Shown piece after piece: positions 12,279 to 23,467 of a stretch of 64,000 nucleotides of DNA. Positions within the stretch are counted from its first letter, which is position 1, and each line of letters starts with the position of its first letter. A program made the position numbers and the translations under genes. Under the pieces are notes generated by a model that was given only the letters and a program-made list of their open reading frames with translations, was not told the origin of the DNA and did no database searches. The DNA comes from Aggregicoccus sp. 17bor-14 (GTDB taxonomy: Bacteria > Myxococcota > Myxococcia > Myxococcales > Myxococcaceae), in the NCBI RefSeq assembly GCF_009659535.1, contig NZ_VJZZ01000014.1, forward strand, positions 1 through 64,000, written 5' to 3'.

Positions 12279-12812
12279 ATGAGACGCCTCATCCTCACCG
12301 CCGCCCTCTGCCTCGCCACGCCGCTCGCACTCGCAGGCGAGGGCACGAAGCCGCACGCCTCGGCGAAGGCCGCGGAGAGCTGCGGCCAGCACATGGCCGA
12401 CGAAGCGAAGTACCCCGAGCAGCTGAGCAGGACCCTCACCCAGGTCGCGGACATGTACGAGGCGCACGCGAAGTGGGTGGGCACCGGAGACGCGGCGTCG
12501 AAGGCCGAGCACGACAAGCTGGTGCAGCTCGCCCAGGAGCACCGCGACCTCGCGCAGTCCTCGCGCAAGATGGCCGACTCGATGAAGGCCTCGAGCGACC
12601 TGGCCGCCGCGCCGCACAAGGGCCCGCCGCCTGCCGAGCTCACCCGGGCAATGCAGAACATGCTCGCGGAGATGCACACCTTCGCCCAGATGCTGGACCG
12701 CGGCGTGCGCGAGGGCCAGCACGACCTGCAGGCGATGAAGGGCCCGAAGGCGGGCGGCAGCGCGCAGCAGGGCACGGGCGGCTCGGGCGCGCCGGCGAAG
12801 GACATGCACTAG
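12279..12812 (+). CDS. Secreted hypothetical helical protein
   Basis: A 177-residue protein with a signal peptide (LILTAALCLATPLALAGEG). The mature part is hydrophilic and helical, with repeated Ala/Lys/Asp/His segments (MYEAHAKWVG, HRDLAQSSRKMADSMKA, MLAEMHTFAQMLDRGVREGQHD), and ends in a Gly/Ser/Lys tail. The spaced His and Met residues recall small periplasmic metal-binding helical proteins, but no family was recognised. The duplicated ribosome binding site fixes the start. Confidence 0.75.
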   Translation: MRRLILTAALCLATPLALAGEGTKPHASAKAAESCGQHMADEAKYPEQLSRTLTQVADMYEAHAKWVGTGDAASKAEHDKLVQLAQEHRDLAQSSRKMADSMKASSDLAAAPHKGPPPAELTRAMQNMLAEMHTFAQMLDRGVREGQHDLQAMKGPKAGGSAQQGTGGSGAPAKDMH

Positions 12813-12898
12813 CGGCCCGCGCACAACGCAGGGATGGCGCGTGCGGGGCGGCTGCGTTAGTCCTGCCGCTACCCCCCGACTGCCCGGAGCCCTCCCGC

Positions 12899-13495
12899 GT
12901 GTCCCTGCCTGTGCGCCCCGTCCTCGCCTCCGCCGCCCTGCTGCTCGCCGCCGCAGGCCTCGCCCACGCGGCCGCTCCGGCCCCCTCCCCGTCCCCCAAG
13001 CCCGGCAAAGCCCAGGAGCGCAGCGTGTACGACTTCAAGGTCGAGACCATCGATGGAAAGCAGCAGGACCTGAGCGCCTACAAGGGCCAGGCGCTGCTCG
13101 TGGTGAACACCGCGAGCGAGTGCGGCTACACGCCCCAGTACAAGGGGCTGGAGGAGCTGTACCGCGCGTACAAGGCGCGCGGCTTCACGGTGCTCGCCTT
13201 CCCGGCGAACAACTTCGGCGGCCAGGAGCCCGGCAGCAACGCGGAGATCAAGCGCTTCTGCGAGCTGAAGTACCGCACCACCTTCCCGCTCTTCGGCAAG
13301 GTGAGCGTGAAGGGGCAGGACATCCACCCGCTCTTCCAGCACCTCACCCAGCAGCCGGGCCTGGAGGGGGACATCCGCTGGAACTTCAGCAAGTTCCTCA
13401 TCGACCCGAGCGGCAAGCTGGTGGCGCGCTTCGACTCGAAGGTGGAGCCGATGTCGCCCGAGCTGCGGCAGAAGCTCGAGGCCACCCTGCCCTAG
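12899..13495 (+). CDS. Glutathione peroxidase, Cys type
   Basis: A 198-residue thioredoxin-fold peroxidase with an N-terminal signal peptide, so probably periplasmic. The catalytic Cys-75 lies in TASECGYTPQY, the conserved Gln-109 in FPANNFGGQEPG, and the Trp/Asn pair in RWNFSKFLID. It reduces hydrogen peroxide or lipid hydroperoxides using a thiol donor. The active site uses a TGC Cys codon, not selenocysteine. The GTG start is chosen because it places the signal peptide at the N-terminus. It is the first gene of a probable three-gene operon. Confidence 0.9.
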   Translation: MSLPVRPVLASAALLLAAAGLAHAAAPAPSPSPKPGKAQERSVYDFKVETIDGKQQDLSAYKGQALLVVNTASECGYTPQYKGLEELYRAYKARGFTVLAFPANNFGGQEPGSNAEIKRFCELKYRTTFPLFGKVSVKGQDIHPLFQHLTQQPGLEGDIRWNFSKFLIDPSGKLVARFDSKVEPMSPELRQKLEATLP

Positions 13496-16191: not shown

Positions 16192-17181
16192 ATGAAGGCC
16201 GTTCGCTATCACGCCGTGGGAGGCCCCGAGGTGCTGCGGGCCGGGGACGTGCCGCAGGTGGAGCCGGGCGCGGGCGAGGTGCGCGTGCGGGTGCACGTGG
16301 CGGGGGTGAACTTCGCGGACACGGAGCGGCGGCGCGGGCTGTACGACGCGGCGGTGCCCCTGCCCCGCATCCTGGGCAGCGAGGCGGCCGGGGTGGTGGA
16401 CGCGGTGGGCCCGGGCGTGGACGCGGGCTGGGTGGGCGCGCACGTGGTGGCGTGGACGCAGCGGTGCTACGCGGAGTGGACGCTCGCGCCGCTGGGGCGG
16501 GTGTGGCGCGTGCCCGAGGGCGTGTCCTTCGCGCAGGCGGCGGCGCTGCCGGTGCAGGGGCTCACCGCATGGCACCTGCTGCACACGGTGGGGCGGGTGC
16601 AGGCGGGCGAGGCGGTGCTGGTGCACGCGGCGGCGGGCGGCGTGGGCACGCTGCTGGTGCAGCTGGCGCGGGCGGCCGGCGCGCGGGTGCTCGCGGTGGT
16701 GGGCAGCGCGCAGAAGGCCGCGCTCGCCGAGCGCCTCGGCGCGAGCGCGGTCGCGCGCTCGGACACACCGGACGCCGAGTTGGGTGAGTGGGCGCGCGCC
16801 CAGACGCAGGGGCGCGGCGTGGAGCTCGCGCTGGACGCGGTGGGGCAGGCCACGTGGGGGGAGAGCCTGCACGCGCTCGCGCCCTTCGGCCGCGCCGTCT
16901 ACTACGGCAGCGCGAGTGGCGTGCCCCCGCCGGTGGACCTGGATGCGCAGCTCTTCGAGCGCTCGCTCAGCGTGAGCGCGTACTGGCTCGCGACGCCCCA
17001 CCCCGAGGGCGCGCACGCGCGCGCGATGGAGGACCTGCTCGCGCAGGTGGCCGCGGGCGCGCTGAGGCCGGTGCTCGGCCTGACGCTGCCGCTGGACGAG
17101 GCCGCCGAGGCGCACCGCCAGCTCGAGGGGCGCGCGACGGTGGGCAAGGTGCTGCTCCAGGTTCGCAGCGGGGAGTACTGA
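16192..17181 (+). CDS. Zinc-independent quinone oxidoreductase (MDR family)
   Basis: A 329-residue medium-chain dehydrogenase/reductase of the NADPH:quinone reductase (Qor) group. The GroES-like N-terminal domain has GVNFADTERRRGLY and ILGSEAAGVVDAVG. The cofactor domain (about 130-290) carries the nucleotide-binding motif VHAAAGGVGTLLVQLARAAGARVLAVVGSAQK, and the C-terminus has ATVGKVLL. No catalytic-zinc ligands are seen. It should reduce quinones or enones with NADPH. The ATG follows a CTAAG word by 12 nt. Confidence 0.88.
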   Translation: MKAVRYHAVGGPEVLRAGDVPQVEPGAGEVRVRVHVAGVNFADTERRRGLYDAAVPLPRILGSEAAGVVDAVGPGVDAGWVGAHVVAWTQRCYAEWTLAPLGRVWRVPEGVSFAQAAALPVQGLTAWHLLHTVGRVQAGEAVLVHAAAGGVGTLLVQLARAAGARVLAVVGSAQKAALAERLGASAVARSDTPDAELGEWARAQTQGRGVELALDAVGQATWGESLHALAPFGRAVYYGSASGVPPPVDLDAQLFERSLSVSAYWLATPHPEGAHARAMEDLLAQVAAGALRPVLGLTLPLDEAAEAHRQLEGRATVGKVLLQVRSGEY

Positions 17182-18068: not shown

Positions 18069-18860
18069 CTACGCCACGATCACGGTGACGCCGTTCGCAT
18101 CGCTCGTGGTGGGGTAGGCGCGCAGCGAGGTGGTGGCGGGGCCGGAGCGGGGCACCACGGCGCCGTCGGGCTGGAACTCCGAGCCGTGGCGCGGGCAGAT
18201 GAGCAGCCCATCCGCGGCGCTCCACGCAACGGTGGCGCCCTGGTGCGGGCAGATGCCGTCGGTGGCCTGGAAGCGGCCGTCGCCGAGCGCAAAGACGAAG
18301 AGCCGGTGGCCGAGCCCCTCGGGCACGCCGTAGTAGAGGCCGCCCGCGGTGGCGAGCTGCGGGAACTGCGCGAAGGGGAAGGTGATGCGGCCGTCCACCA
18401 CCGGGGGCGTGGTGGCGTCGCCCGCGGCGAAGCGGATGCTGAGCACGCCGGTGGCCGGGTCGTAGCTGCTCGCGTAGGTGTCCAGCGGCGCCACGGCGGG
18501 CGGATTCGTGGGCACGCCGTCGTTGCCGAAGCGCGCGCCGTGACAGGGGCAGGCGATCTCCCCCGCGTCCACGCCCAGCGGACAGCCCTGGTGCGTGCAC
18601 TGCGCGCCGAGCACGACGTACTGGTCCCCCTGCGGGTGCACCACGAGGTACTCCGAGCCGTCGTCGAGCTGCAGGGTGATGCCGCCCCCCTCGCGCGCGA
18701 GGTCCGGGTAGCTCGAGACCTGCAGCTCCACGCGCTTGTTGGCCGAGGTCGCCTTGACCAGGGGCGCGGGGCGGATGTCCGGCGCACAGGCGGGCAGCAC
18801 GGCGGCGGCGCCCGCGGCTCCGGCGAGCCCCGCGAGGAAGCGGCGGCGCGAGCAGCTCAC
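18069..18860 (-). CDS. Tandem Rieske [2Fe-2S] lipoprotein
   Basis: A 263-residue protein with a twin-arginine signal (SRRRFLAG) that ends in a lipobox (VLPAC), so it should be exported folded and anchored by lipid. It has two Rieske domains. Domain 1 (about 45-145) has Cys-88/His-90 and Cys-104/His-107 plus extra cysteines 93 and 106 that could form the disulfide of high-potential Rieske proteins. Domain 2 (about 155-263) has Cys-204/His-206 and Cys-222/His-225 but lacks the disulfide cysteines. The two centres probably differ in potential. The GTG start overlaps the stop of the upstream YceI gene. Confidence 0.88.
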   Translation of the reverse strand: MSCSRRRFLAGLAGAAGAAAVLPACAPDIRPAPLVKATSANKRVELQVSSYPDLAREGGGITLQLDDGSEYLVVHPQGDQYVVLGAQCTHQGCPLGVDAGEIACPCHGARFGNDGVPTNPPAVAPLDTYASSYDPATGVLSIRFAAGDATTPPVVDGRITFPFAQFPQLATAGGLYYGVPEGLGHRLFVFALGDGRFQATDGICPHQGATVAWSAADGLLICPRHGSEFQPDGAVVPRSGPATTSLRAYPTTSDANGVTVIVA

Positions 18861-19429
18861 GCACCCTCCTGCGCGAGCTTCACCGCGAGGTCGAGCACCA
18901 GCGCGTCCTGCACCTTCACCATCAGGAGCGAGGGGCGCTCGATCTGGAAGGCCTCGAGGCTGATCTCGAAGCGCCCGGTGGCGTCCGCCTTCGCGGGGCT
19001 CTGGAAAGTGACCTGCAGCGGCACCTCCACGGGCCGGGTGACGCCGTGGAAGGTGAGGCGGCCCTTCACGGTGACGGGCAGCGTGGCGGGCAGCTTCGCC
19101 GGCACGCGCACGGCGCCCGCCACGCCCTTGAAGTCGATGAGCGGGAAGCGGCTCGCGTCGGTGGCCTCCTTCATGTGCGCGTCCCGGTTCGCGTTGCCCG
19201 AGTCGAAGTCCTCGACGCGCGCGCGCACCGCGACCTGCAGGGTGCCGTCCGGCAGCAGGCGCGCCTTGCCCTCGAGGCGCTTCGCGGTGCCCTTCACCTC
19301 GTGCAGCTTGTGGATGAGCGTGTACGTGAGCGCGCTGCCGTCCTGCACGCCGTAGGTGCGCGGCGCGCCGCCCTCGGCGAGCGCGGCGACGGACAGGAGC
19401 AGGGCGCAGAGGGCGGAGAGTGAGCGCAT
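18857..19429 (-). CDS. YceI family periplasmic protein
   Basis: A 190-residue protein with a signal peptide (LCALLLSVAALAEG). The mature part is a YceI-like lipocalin-fold barrel: FDSGNANRDAHMKEATDASRFPLIDFKG and GRLTFHGVTRPVEVPLQVTF are characteristic. Known relatives bind isoprenoids or other long lipids in the periplasm, and some have b-type haem partners. It overlaps the Rieske gene (GTGA) and lies 12 nt after the membrane-protein gene, forming a three-gene operon. Confidence 0.85.
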   Translation of the reverse strand: MRSLSALCALLLSVAALAEGGAPRTYGVQDGSALTYTLIHKLHEVKGTAKRLEGKARLLPDGTLQVAVRARVEDFDSGNANRDAHMKEATDASRFPLIDFKGVAGAVRVPAKLPATLPVTVKGRLTFHGVTRPVEVPLQVTFQSPAKADATGRFEISLEAFQIERPSLLMVKVQDALVLDLAVKLAQEGA

Positions 19430-19441
19430 GTTCGGAGCGAC

Positions 19442-20215
19442 CTAGAGGAAGAGGGTGAACACGCCCGCGGTGGTGAACCCGAGCGTGGCGTAGCCGACCA
19501 CCTGGTGCGCGGTGGCGAAGCGCACCTGGGAGACCTGCCCCTGCTGGGCGGAGCTCGCGGTGATGAGGCCGAGCACCACCTGGGTGACCATGCCGGCGGC
19601 CGCGAGCGACATGAACACCTTGTGCATGAGCACCGTGTCGAAGCGCAGCGGCTTCGGGTAGGGCTCGGGGGCGAGGATGCCCATCAGCGCCACGGTGCCG
19701 AAGAGGGCGGTGGTGCCCACGGCGAGCCCGCGGTGCAGGGTCTTCCAGGTGCCGTCGTCGCCGCCGCCGCGGTAGATGTCGTTGAAGTTGAGCTGGCCCA
19801 CCAGCGTGGTGGCCACGAGCCCGCCGGCCATGCCCAGCCCCAGCCCCTGGTGCAGCGAGAGCATGGTGCGCCGGCGCGACACGGCGCGCTCGAGCTCGAG
19901 GTCCGGCGCGGCCGCCTTCGCCTCGGGCTCGAGCAGCTCGAAGTCCAGCGAGGGGTCCGCCGGGGCCTGCTGCGCGGGCGAGGCCTCGGGCGGGGCGCGC
20001 GGCGCATCACTCGGCGGGGGAGCGGCGGGGGTCTCCGGCTGCGCGGGCGCCTCCGGCGGCGCGGCGGCGGCGGGCTTCTTCTGCGCGCGCTTCTTCTTCG
20101 AAGAGCCCTGCGAAGAGGACTGCGCGTGCTTCGGGGGGGTGCTCGTGCCCAGCGCCTGCGCGGGCAGGGCGGCGGCGAGCAGCAGCGCGGAGGCCGCGAC
20201 GACAGCGAGCTTCAT
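19442..20215 (-). CDS. Membrane protein with paired conserved histidines, possibly b-type haem
   Basis: A 257-residue protein. It has a signal peptide, a long Lys/Ala/Pro-rich linker (about 22-90), then four hydrophobic helices (about 115-257). A His opens or lies near each helix (LHQGLGLGM, LHRGLAVGT, MHKVFMSLA, AHQVVGYAT), the layout of four-helix cytochromes b such as b561. Haem binding is inferred from that pattern only. It is the first gene of the operon with YceI and the tandem Rieske protein, so the three may form one electron-transfer chain. Confidence 0.68.
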   Translation of the reverse strand: MKLAVVAASALLLAAALPAQALGTSTPPKHAQSSSQGSSKKKRAQKKPAAAAPPEAPAQPETPAAPPPSDAPRAPPEASPAQQAPADPSLDFELLEPEAKAAAPDLELERAVSRRRTMLSLHQGLGLGMAGGLVATTLVGQLNFNDIYRGGGDDGTWKTLHRGLAVGTTALFGTVALMGILAPEPYPKPLRFDTVLMHKVFMSLAAAGMVTQVVLGLITASSAQQGQVSQVRFATAHQVVGYATLGFTTAGVFTLFL

Positions 20216-20382: not shown

Positions 20383-20808
20383 CTACGCGGGCGCGCTCGC
20401 GGGGGCCTCGCTGCGCGGGGCGTTGTTCTGCGCGAGCTCCTGGCCCAGCGCGTGCGGATCGAAGTAGGCGAAGAAGCGGCTGACCCGGTCGCCGTCCCAC
20501 TCGAGGATGCTCACGCCCTCGTAGGCCACGGCCGCGCCGTTGTGCGCCGTGCCCTGCGTCTCCCACTCGAGTGCCGTGCGGTCGCCCGAGTCGATGACGT
20601 TGCGGAAGGTGGAGCGCACCTGCTTCAGCGTCGCCTTGTACTCCGTCCAGAAGGCGCGCGCGCCCTCGCGCCCGCTGAAGACGCGGGGGCTGGCGAGGTT
20701 GCTCACCTGCGCGTCGTCGGCGAAGAGCGCGAGGAGGCCGTCCACGTCGCCCTTCTCCTCCAGCCTCCCCAGTGCATCCATGAACCGCTGAGCTCGCTCC
20801 ATCGACAT
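20383..20808 (-). CDS. SnoaL-like / NTF2-fold protein
   Basis: A 141-residue soluble protein with the NTF2-like fold pattern: an N-terminal helix (AQRFMDALGRLEEKGDVDGLLALFADDAQ), then strands ending VSILEWDGDRVSRFFAYFDPHALG. This matches SnoaL-like domain proteins, a fold used for small-molecule enzymes and binders. Start ATG 20808 has a good GGAAGGGA ribosome binding site; a second ATG two codons on is possible. Confidence 0.78.
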   Translation of the reverse strand: MSMERAQRFMDALGRLEEKGDVDGLLALFADDAQVSNLASPRVFSGREGARAFWTEYKATLKQVRSTFRNVIDSGDRTALEWETQGTAHNGAAVAYEGVSILEWDGDRVSRFFAYFDPHALGQELAQNNAPRSEAPASAPA

Positions 20809-21001
20809 GTGTGCGTCCCTTCCTTCGGCCGCCGCCACGCCCGCGTCGGCGCGCGGGGGTAGGGGCCCTCGTGGGTGTGCGGATCAAGGTGCGCACGGGG
20901 CCTGTCCGCGGGCGCACACCTTGGACACGCTCGCCCGCATGGCTCCAGGCCCAGCACCCGCGGCGGCCACCGGGCGCACAGCCGCCCGGACGCCCCTCCG
21001 C

Positions 21002-22714: not shown

Positions 22715-22813
22715 CGGGCAGGGAGGCGGCTTTCCCCCGCCCCAAGCCGGGCTGATGGTGGCGCCCCGCGCGCGCCTTGCCCCCCGCGCCCCCTTCCGTT
22801 AGCAGTGGCGTCC

Positions 22814-23467
22814 ATGTCCACCCCCGCCCCCGCCTCTCCCGCCCTGCCCCGGCGCGCCTCGAGCCCGCTGCTCTGGGGCGTGCTCGGCGCGCTGCTCGCC
22901 GGCGTGCTGCTCGCGGGCGCCTGGGTGGCGCTGCGCCCGGCGCCCGAGCCGCTGCCGGACCTGGGCGCGCTGCCCGCCTTCACCTTCACCCGCCAGGACG
23001 GGCGCCCCTTCGGGCTGCAGCAGCTGCAGGGCCACCCCTTCGTGGCGAACTTCATCTTCACCCGCTGCCCCACGGTGTGTCCGCTCTTCAGCAAGAAGAT
23101 GGCGGCGCTGCAGGGGCGCACGAAGGACGTGGGCGCGAGGCTCGCGCTCGTCTCCTTCTCGGTGGACCCGAAGTACGACACCCCCGAGCGCCTCTCCGCC
23201 TACGCGCACAAGTACGGCGCGGACGAGGCGCGCTGGAGCTTCCTCACCGGCGACTACGAGCAGCTCAAGGGCACCATCGTCGGCGGCTTCAAGATCTCCA
23301 TGGGCCGCGAGAACCTGGACGACGCGGACGTGATGGGCATCTTCCACGGCACCCACTTCGTGCTGGTGGACGGCCGGGGCCACGTGCGCGGCTACTACGA
23401 CAGCAACGACGCCGAGGCCACCGAGCGCCTGGTACAGGACGCCGAGCGCCTCGCGCGCGAGGGCTGA
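22814..23467 (+). CDS. SCO1/SenC family copper protein
   Basis: A 217-residue membrane-anchored thioredoxin-fold protein. One N-terminal helix (about 20-42) anchors it, with the copper-binding FTRCPTVCPLF (Cys pair about 76-80) and the distal His in HGTHFVLVD. SCO proteins deliver copper to cytochrome c oxidase CuA or act as periplasmic redox proteins. No oxidase genes are nearby. ATG 22814 is preferred; an in-frame GTG at 22805 would add three residues. A TTAGCAG word lies just upstream. Confidence 0.9.
   Translation: MSTPAPASPALPRRASSPLLWGVLGALLAGVLLAGAWVALRPAPEPLPDLGALPAFTFTRQDGRPFGLQQLQGHPFVANFIFTRCPTVCPLFSKKMAALQGRTKDVGARLALVSFSVDPKYDTPERLSAYAHKYGADEARWSFLTGDYEQLKGTIVGGFKISMGRENLDDADVMGIFHGTHFVLVDGRGHVRGYYDSNDAEATERLVQDAERLAREG

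Follow-up and report, generated by a model that had tools for sequence, protein, structure and literature searches.

What do a Rieske lipoprotein, a lipid-binding barrel and a small membrane protein do together in one compact operon? The question is raised by a locus at positions 18069-20215 of the DNA analyzed here, a window of 64,000 nucleotides from Aggregicoccus sp. 17bor-14, whose genome assembly comprises 6.9 Mb in 38 contigs and whose relatives are the Myxococcaceae.

A three-gene operon on the minus strand

The initial annotation had described a three-gene Rieske/YceI/membrane-protein locus in this interval, and we found its coordinates and content to be correct, with all three genes on the minus strand. 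In the order of transcription, gene 1 encodes a membrane protein of 257 amino acids, here called MEMB (19442..20215, read from 20215 to 19442), gene 2 a YceI-family lipocalin of 190 amino acids with a signal peptide (18857..19429, read from 19429 to 18857), and gene 3 a tandem Rieske lipoprotein of 263 amino acids with a Tat-type signal and a lipobox (18069..18860, read from 18860 to 18069). The MEMB and YceI genes are separated by 12 bp, and the YceI stop codon and the GTG start codon of the Rieske gene overlap by 4 bp. The operon is flanked on its 5' side by a gene for a SnoaL-like protein (20383-20838, PF12680) and on its 3' side by a convergent reading frame ending near 17181. The rest of the window appears to hold no further gene belonging to the operon. 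A search of the operon returned no sigma-70 promoter or terminator scoring above chance.

Elsewhere in the window, a SCO1/SenC copper chaperone is encoded at 22805-23464 on the plus strand (PF02630). A glutathione-peroxidase-like reading frame, recognized by eye, lies at 12473-13495 on the plus strand (ASECGYTPQYKGLEELY...), about 4.6 kb from the operon; it is noteworthy because a role involving lipid peroxides is proposed for the operon below. A perfect palindrome of 20 bp, TGGAATGAAGCTTCATTCCA, is found with its near copies at window positions 26, 394, 17433, 17503, 17565, 17627, 32940 and 32985, where none is expected by chance. When up to 2 mismatches were allowed, there were 22 sites genome-wide, 11 of them on the operon's 168-kb contig, which represents 2.4% of the genome. 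The sites are often paired, about 46-62 bp apart, and a reversed control gave 0 sites.

The genes recur together in two phyla

We searched for MEMB in 117 whole genomes of the order and found it in 73. For the Myxococcota loci each species was represented by a single genome, and a few genomes contributed two or three copies. The gene neighborhoods were then counted with HMMs run on six-frame translations, and a YceI gene was accepted when it lay on the same strand within 3 kb. By these HMMs, which were derived from the same loci so that the counts lean to inclusion (Pfam confirmed representative members), YceI lay beside MEMB in 59 of 70 Myxococcota loci. The redox carrier in these 70 loci was a Rieske lipoprotein in 43 and a c-type cytochrome lipoprotein in 16; no locus had both, and 11 had neither. 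Five of the 11 loci without a Rieske or recognized c-type carrier were also without YceI. Most of the c-type cytochrome lipoproteins contain two CxxCH motifs, and those of loci L064 and L065 contain one.

The gene order varied among lineages. Myxococcaceae, Archangium and Anaeromyxobacter have MEMB-YceI-Rieske, some uncultured lineages have YceI-MEMB-Rieske or MEMB-Rieske, and others have MEMB-YceI-cytochrome c. Relatives of MEMB were also present in 32 of 395 sampled Bacteroidota genomes (about 8%). In the Bacteroidota loci, YceI was located directly downstream in 35 of 36, and a single-Rieske lipoprotein accompanied MEMB in 30 of 36, usually upstream; besides these two, no neighbor gene was broadly conserved in the Bacteroidota loci.

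Since the combination recurs across Myxococcota and Bacteroidota, the association of Rieske, YceI and MEMB is more than chance. The initial annotation had made its reading depend on co-location of the genes in relatives, and such co-location was found in both phyla. The recurrence in varied gene orders and in two phyla is the strongest evidence that the genes form a functional unit.

In four Anaeromyxobacter-type loci (L048, L081, L082 and L112), MEMB and YceI are separated by an anti-sigma-like gene (zf-HC2-like, DUF4384) of the opposite strand. An ECF sigma factor gene adjoins it in L048, L081 and L112, and such a pair is found near MEMB in L046. These genes at the Anaeromyxobacter module are consistent with stress control. 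One Myxococcus-type locus (L088, BNCN01000018.1) comes from a record titled Comamonas sp. KCTC 72670, which may be mislabelled or contaminated.

The YceI partner is a probable subtype tied to MEMB

The YceI protein passed the cut-off of PF04264 (70.7 bits against 23.7; E 2e-19), in agreement with the earlier assignment to the lipid-binding barrel family, and a signal peptide was seen in its sequence. It contains an HxxH signature formed by H40 and H43 (19301..19312, minus strand). Both histidines were present in 89 of 89 module YceI proteins covering these columns, and a near-invariant RPxL is common to the HxxH-bearing proteins (n = 89 covering the columns). The histidine pair is absent from all six other YceI proteins encoded in the source genome.

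A match to a profile of the module-type YceI with E below 1e-24 was present in 71 of the 73 MEMB-positive genomes and in 2 of the 44 MEMB-negative genomes (71/2/2/42, n = 117). The Fisher test for this co-occurrence gave 7e-27, a p-value that overstates independence, as the genomes are related. The only MEMB-positive genomes without a module YceI were G109, in which MEMB has an internal stop, and G008, which encodes a divergent MEMB without H122. Sequence comparison suggested that the module YceI is a subtype with its own HxxH pair, tied to the MEMB family. For other YceI proteins, an isoprenoid or quinone in the barrel is known, and a Neisseria YceI protein was co-purified with ubiquinone-8 (PMC9113575).

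The third protein is a probable, exchangeable one-electron carrier

The Rieske protein contains two stretches matching PF00355 (E 5e-24; 84.4 bits against a cut-off of 20.3). Its Tat motif scored below the cut-off of the Pfam model and above that of NCBIfam TIGR01409 (19.0 versus 16.7 bits), and the lipobox LPAC was read from the sequence at residues 22-25 (18786..18797, minus strand). Center 1 (18540..18599, minus strand) has the ligands C88, H90, C104 and H107 together with C93 and C106 of the disulphide type, and reads C88-T-H90-x-x-C93 ... C104-P-C106-H107. Center 2 (18186..18251, minus strand) has the ligands C204, H206, C222 and H225 and reads C204-P-H206 ... C222-P-R-H225 (CPHQGA...CPRH), the extra disulphide cysteines being lost here. 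All eight cluster ligands were invariant across 22 homologues. The AlphaFold model of the protein had a pLDDT of 90, and Foldseek matched it to Rieske domains with E 7e-6, the matches including b6f and Chlorobaculum Rieske domains and dioxygenase ferredoxins. In a more distant tandem Rieske homologue (L157:5489-6280), center 1 is intact and center 2 is without cluster ligands.

The extra cysteines in the first center and their absence from the second, as initially annotated, are real in this genome. The accompanying idea that two clusters of different potential belong to the design of the system did not hold among relatives: wherever two centers could be read in another Myxococcaceae or Anaeromyxobacter locus, the disulphide cysteines were present in both. 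Because the relatives keep the extra cysteine pair in both centers, the asymmetry of the window protein is a lineage-specific change. In arsenite oxidase Rieske proteins, moreover, the gain or loss of the disulphide does not predict the potential: its introduction decreased Em by 35 mV, and its removal in another case left the potential unchanged (PMC3758308). The disulphide is therefore no safe guide to the potential of a Rieske center. We rejected a designed pair of high- and low-potential Rieske centers as a general rule, on the basis of both the relatives and the arsenite oxidase proteins. The small subunit of arsenite oxidase (AioB) and other exported Rieske proteins resemble the lipoprotein in being Rieske-fold proteins exported by the Tat route, some with the disulphide and some lacking it, but here there are two Rieske domains per lipoprotein and no molybdenum subunit nearby.

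Rieske and c-type lipoproteins interchange between loci and never occur together, a pattern to be expected where any carrier of single electrons can do the work. The exchange implies that the third component of the module is a one-electron carrier, and little else.

MEMB has one conserved histidine on each of four helices

MEMB begins with a predicted Sec signal peptide (residues 1-22; 20150..20215, minus strand), read from the sequence and similar to the N termini of homologues. Next come a linker of 80 residues rich in Pro, Ala and Lys, the DFELL motif and a four-helix bundle. The four-helix core (residues 105-257; 19445..19903, minus strand) is the conserved part of the family. In the predicted model (pLDDT 88), the helices comprise residues 106-148, 158-181, 194-221 and 228-254.

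The histidines that the initial annotation had noticed on the helices of a four-helix membrane protein are H122, H161, H198 and H237, one per helix. All are putative haem ligands encoded on the minus strand. H122 on helix 1 (19850..19852), which would pair with H198, was conserved in 69 of 70 Myxococcota sequences, the exception being the divergent copy L077, and in 36 of 36 Bacteroidota sequences. H198 on helix 3 (19622..19624) was present in 70 of 70 and 36 of 36, respectively. H161 on helix 2 (19733..19735), which would pair with H237, was found in 70 of 70 Myxococcota and 28 of 36 Bacteroidota sequences, with Lys in its place in 7, and H237 on helix 4 (19505..19507) was found in 70 of 70 Myxococcota sequences and was invariant in 26 Bacteroidota proteins. 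Conservation of the MEMB histidines, on which the initial annotation had also made its reading depend, was therefore observed in 69 or 70 of the 70 Myxococcota sequences. As Lys takes the place of H161 in 7 of the 36 Bacteroidota proteins, the putative periplasmic pair H122/H198 is, in these alignments, more strictly conserved than H161/H237. In Bacteroidota MEMB (e.g., L124 and L187-L219), a second invariant histidine is located 7 residues past the helix-3 histidine, at a position that is an invariant Ala in Myxococcota; the Lys in place of the helix-2 histidine is found in one Bacteroidota subgroup.

Because there is one histidine per helix with a spacing of 39, 37 and 39 residues, histidines 1 and 3 are predicted to lie towards one face of the bundle and histidines 2 and 4 towards the other. 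This pattern fits two bis-His haems. The signal peptides suggest that the linker and the start of helix 1 are outside, which would make H122/H198 the ligands of a periplasmic-side haem and H161/H237 those of a cytoplasmic-side haem. The charge distribution gives no clear support to this sidedness, as the highest positive charge is in the flank before helix 1 and counts against the outside placement.

MEMB is likely a dihaem b-type cytochrome outside PF01292

No Pfam, NCBIfam or PHROGs family matched MEMB over its cut-off. Against PF01292, the prokaryotic cytochrome b561 family, MEMB scored 12.1-13.9 bits (cut-off, 30.1), and hhalign with 19 PF01292 proteins gave a probability of 6-11%. Homology to prokaryotic b561 was thus not supported by the profile comparison. 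The PF01292 proteins of the same order (alignment A6) have invariant H10, H51, H171 and H185 on helices 1, 2, 4 and 4, a pattern not found in MEMB with its single histidine per helix. No protein of the source genome matched PF01292 at E <= 0.001. A complementary distribution of PF01292 and the MEMB family was not seen among the 117 genomes, as PF01292 occurred in 90 of them and many had both.

The weak Pfam matches of 38 Myxococcota MEMB members were mostly to haem-b families, with PF03188 in 17 of 38 and PF01292 in 12 of 38. The window MEMB was not among the PF03188 matches, and five Bacteroidota members scored over the cut-off of this model (23.5-29.3 versus 23). The Bacteroidota and Myxococcota MEMB profiles matched each other in hhalign with 99.9% probability (E 4e-36, 145 columns), and because of this profile-profile match we take the two groups to be one family. 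Since the Bacteroidota relatives include PF03188 members over the cut-off, MEMB is likely a dihaem b-type cytochrome, and the suggestion of haem b in the initial annotation gains indirect support. Whole-protein matches to MEMB elsewhere in the genome fell mostly in the Pro/Ala-rich linker and were disregarded. Weak matches to NCBIfam NF047765 (LIC_13387 family) were found for 7 of 34 MEMB proteins (alignment A3; best E 8e-7), and because of these the family may extend to Leptospira.

Structural comparison of the MEMB model (VIA-align) found a de novo two-haem protein (Z 12.4), cytochrome b6 (Z 11.8), plant cytochrome b561 (4o6y, Z 10.2) and human Dcytb (5zle, Z 10.0). As the helical-bundle background reaches a Z of up to 13, these matches are weak evidence and supportive only. 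Foldseek found no match of the model in the PDB at E <= 0.001, which is not proof of a new fold.

Two known cytochrome types resemble MEMB in part. The eukaryotic-type cytochrome b561 (CYB561, PF03188; 4o6y and 5zle) has a four-helix core with one histidine per helix, and some MEMB family members exceed its Pfam cut-off. The window MEMB, in contrast, is below the PF03188 cut-off, is bacterial, begins with a signal peptide followed by a long linker, and is encoded in an operon with YceI and a carrier lipoprotein. The cytochrome bc1 and b6f complexes likewise combine a dihaem b membrane protein, as predicted here, with a Rieske protein or a c-type cytochrome. Cytochrome b of these complexes has two histidines on each of two helices, whereas MEMB has four helices with one histidine each; the module also has no subunit IV, its lipoproteins have soluble domains and are not anchored subunits, and YceI is added.

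A proposed envelope redox module and its alternatives

Since Rieske and c-type lipoproteins interchange in the module, we propose an exchange of electrons between the quinol pool, MEMB, the carrier and a quinone or lipid bound by YceI. As to haem occupancy and pairing, MEMB would contain two b-type haems, one held by H122 and H198 near the periplasmic face and the other by H161 and H237 near the cytoplasmic face, and would connect the menaquinol pool with the periplasm by electron transfer. Quinone binding would fall to YceI, the barrel of which may hold an isoprenoid quinone or a lipid. The direction of electrons would be from MEMB to the YceI-bound quinone or a further acceptor through the Rieske lipoprotein (a c-type lipoprotein in other lineages), which would act as a membrane-tethered one-electron carrier. 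By analogy with BcnA-LcoA, discussed below, the most likely purpose would be to maintain a quinone or lipid of the periplasm in its reduced state, by which the lipids of the envelope would be protected against oxidation. The whole proposal, an envelope redox module of a dihaem b MEMB, YceI and a carrier protecting envelope lipids, is tentative, with slightly less than an even chance of being right. Its computed basis comprises the association of the genes, the relationship of the families, the conserved ligands and the export signals.

Electrons could also run in reverse. Periplasmic superoxide, reduced lipid or quinone would then be oxidized and the electrons passed through the haems to the quinone pool, as in E. 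coli CybB, a cytochrome b561 which, according to a reference cited in PMC9113575, is a superoxide:ubiquinone oxidoreductase. A high-potential Rieske or c-type carrier could donate or accept electrons, but a superoxide oxidase could work without YceI and without a lipoprotein carrier, and the MEMB family has no demonstrable relation to PF01292; we consider reverse flow unlikely. The best Pfam similarity, which is to eukaryotic-type b561 and ferric reductase-like models, would agree with a trans-membrane reductase for external ferric iron or hydroperoxide, resembling CYB561 or Dcytb, with YceI as a substrate-binding accessory. However, the strict tie to one YceI subtype points to a hydrophobic ligand and not to a metal, and the Bacteroidota loci have no conserved neighboring metal-uptake gene, so that such a reductase seems improbable.

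It is very unlikely, in our view, that the Rieske or c-type lipoprotein feeds an oxygenation or other modification of a YceI-carried lipid, with the real enzyme encoded elsewhere. Rieske domains commonly serve oxygenases, and the models match both b6f Rieske proteins and the ferredoxins of dioxygenases, yet no oxygenase is conserved next to the module, a c-type cytochrome takes the place of the Rieske protein in some loci, and in most Myxococcota both Rieske centers contain the disulphide cysteines, a typical feature of Rieske proteins in respiration. The loss of H161 in some Bacteroidota could indicate that MEMB is haem-free and acts towards YceI and the lipoprotein as a structural scaffold or a quinone-binding anchor. 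Against this highly improbable reading stand the conserved histidines on all four helices, the PF03188 scores over cut-off in the family and the swapped redox carriers.

In favor of the envelope redox module we counted the conserved histidines, the four-helix model, the PF03188 relatives, the carrier swap, the YceI co-occurrence, the ECF genes and the BcnA-LcoA precedent. Against it we counted the weak fold matches, the failure with PF01292, the charge before helix 1, the change of H161 to Lys and the 11 of 70 carrier-less loci.

Relation to BcnA-LcoA and significance

In Burkholderia cenocepacia, the YceI protein BcnA and the cytochrome b561 LcoA form a pair that shields envelope lipids from peroxyl radicals; orthologous gene pairs occur in E. 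coli and many Proteobacteria, and lipid peroxidation is raised in the mutants (PMC9113575). The authors of that study suggested that the cytochrome re-reduces a YceI-bound quinone (PMC9113575). The two systems are alike in placing a small membrane protein of haem type, as predicted for MEMB, beside a secreted YceI lipocalin, as a conserved pair in many Gram-negative bacteria. LcoA, however, is described as a cytochrome b561, whereas MEMB, although b561-like, is unrecognized by PF01292 and has a different histidine pattern; a third redox lipoprotein is added here, and the module YceI has the HxxH pair. The trio looks like a parallel version of BcnA-LcoA with a different cytochrome family and an interchangeable redox lipoprotein.

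A search of open-access full text, with subscription literature outside its scope, found no paper combining YceI, cytochrome b561 and Rieske and no paper on such an operon in myxobacteria. The initial statement that no system of this composition had been described stands for the trio in the open-access literature, but cytochrome b561-YceI pairs were known (PMC9113575). What is already known is the pairing of a b561-like protein with YceI; what is new is an unnamed cytochrome family, the link of this family with one YceI subtype, and a redox lipoprotein that can be exchanged. It is possible, if on balance doubtful, that these represent a new envelope module, in which the unnamed dihaem b family and the HxxH YceI have exchanged the carrier repeatedly (tandem Rieske, single Rieske, or mono- or dihaem c lipoprotein) and quinol electrons reach YceI-carried lipids or quinones, a "small bc-like" chain serving membrane-lipid repair and not respiration.

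Little is known of how Gram-negative bacteria maintain reduced envelope lipids and quinones, and the sole described cytochrome-YceI system, reported in 2022, has an unsolved electron route. The module described here adds a second lineage, in which the cytochrome is of another family and a one-electron carrier can be seen, and it may point to the missing partner, a Rieske protein or a cytochrome c. The trio also offers a compact set of proteins for in vitro tests and a lead to the function of an unnamed membrane protein family found in many Myxococcaceae and in about 8% of the Bacteroidota genomes sampled.
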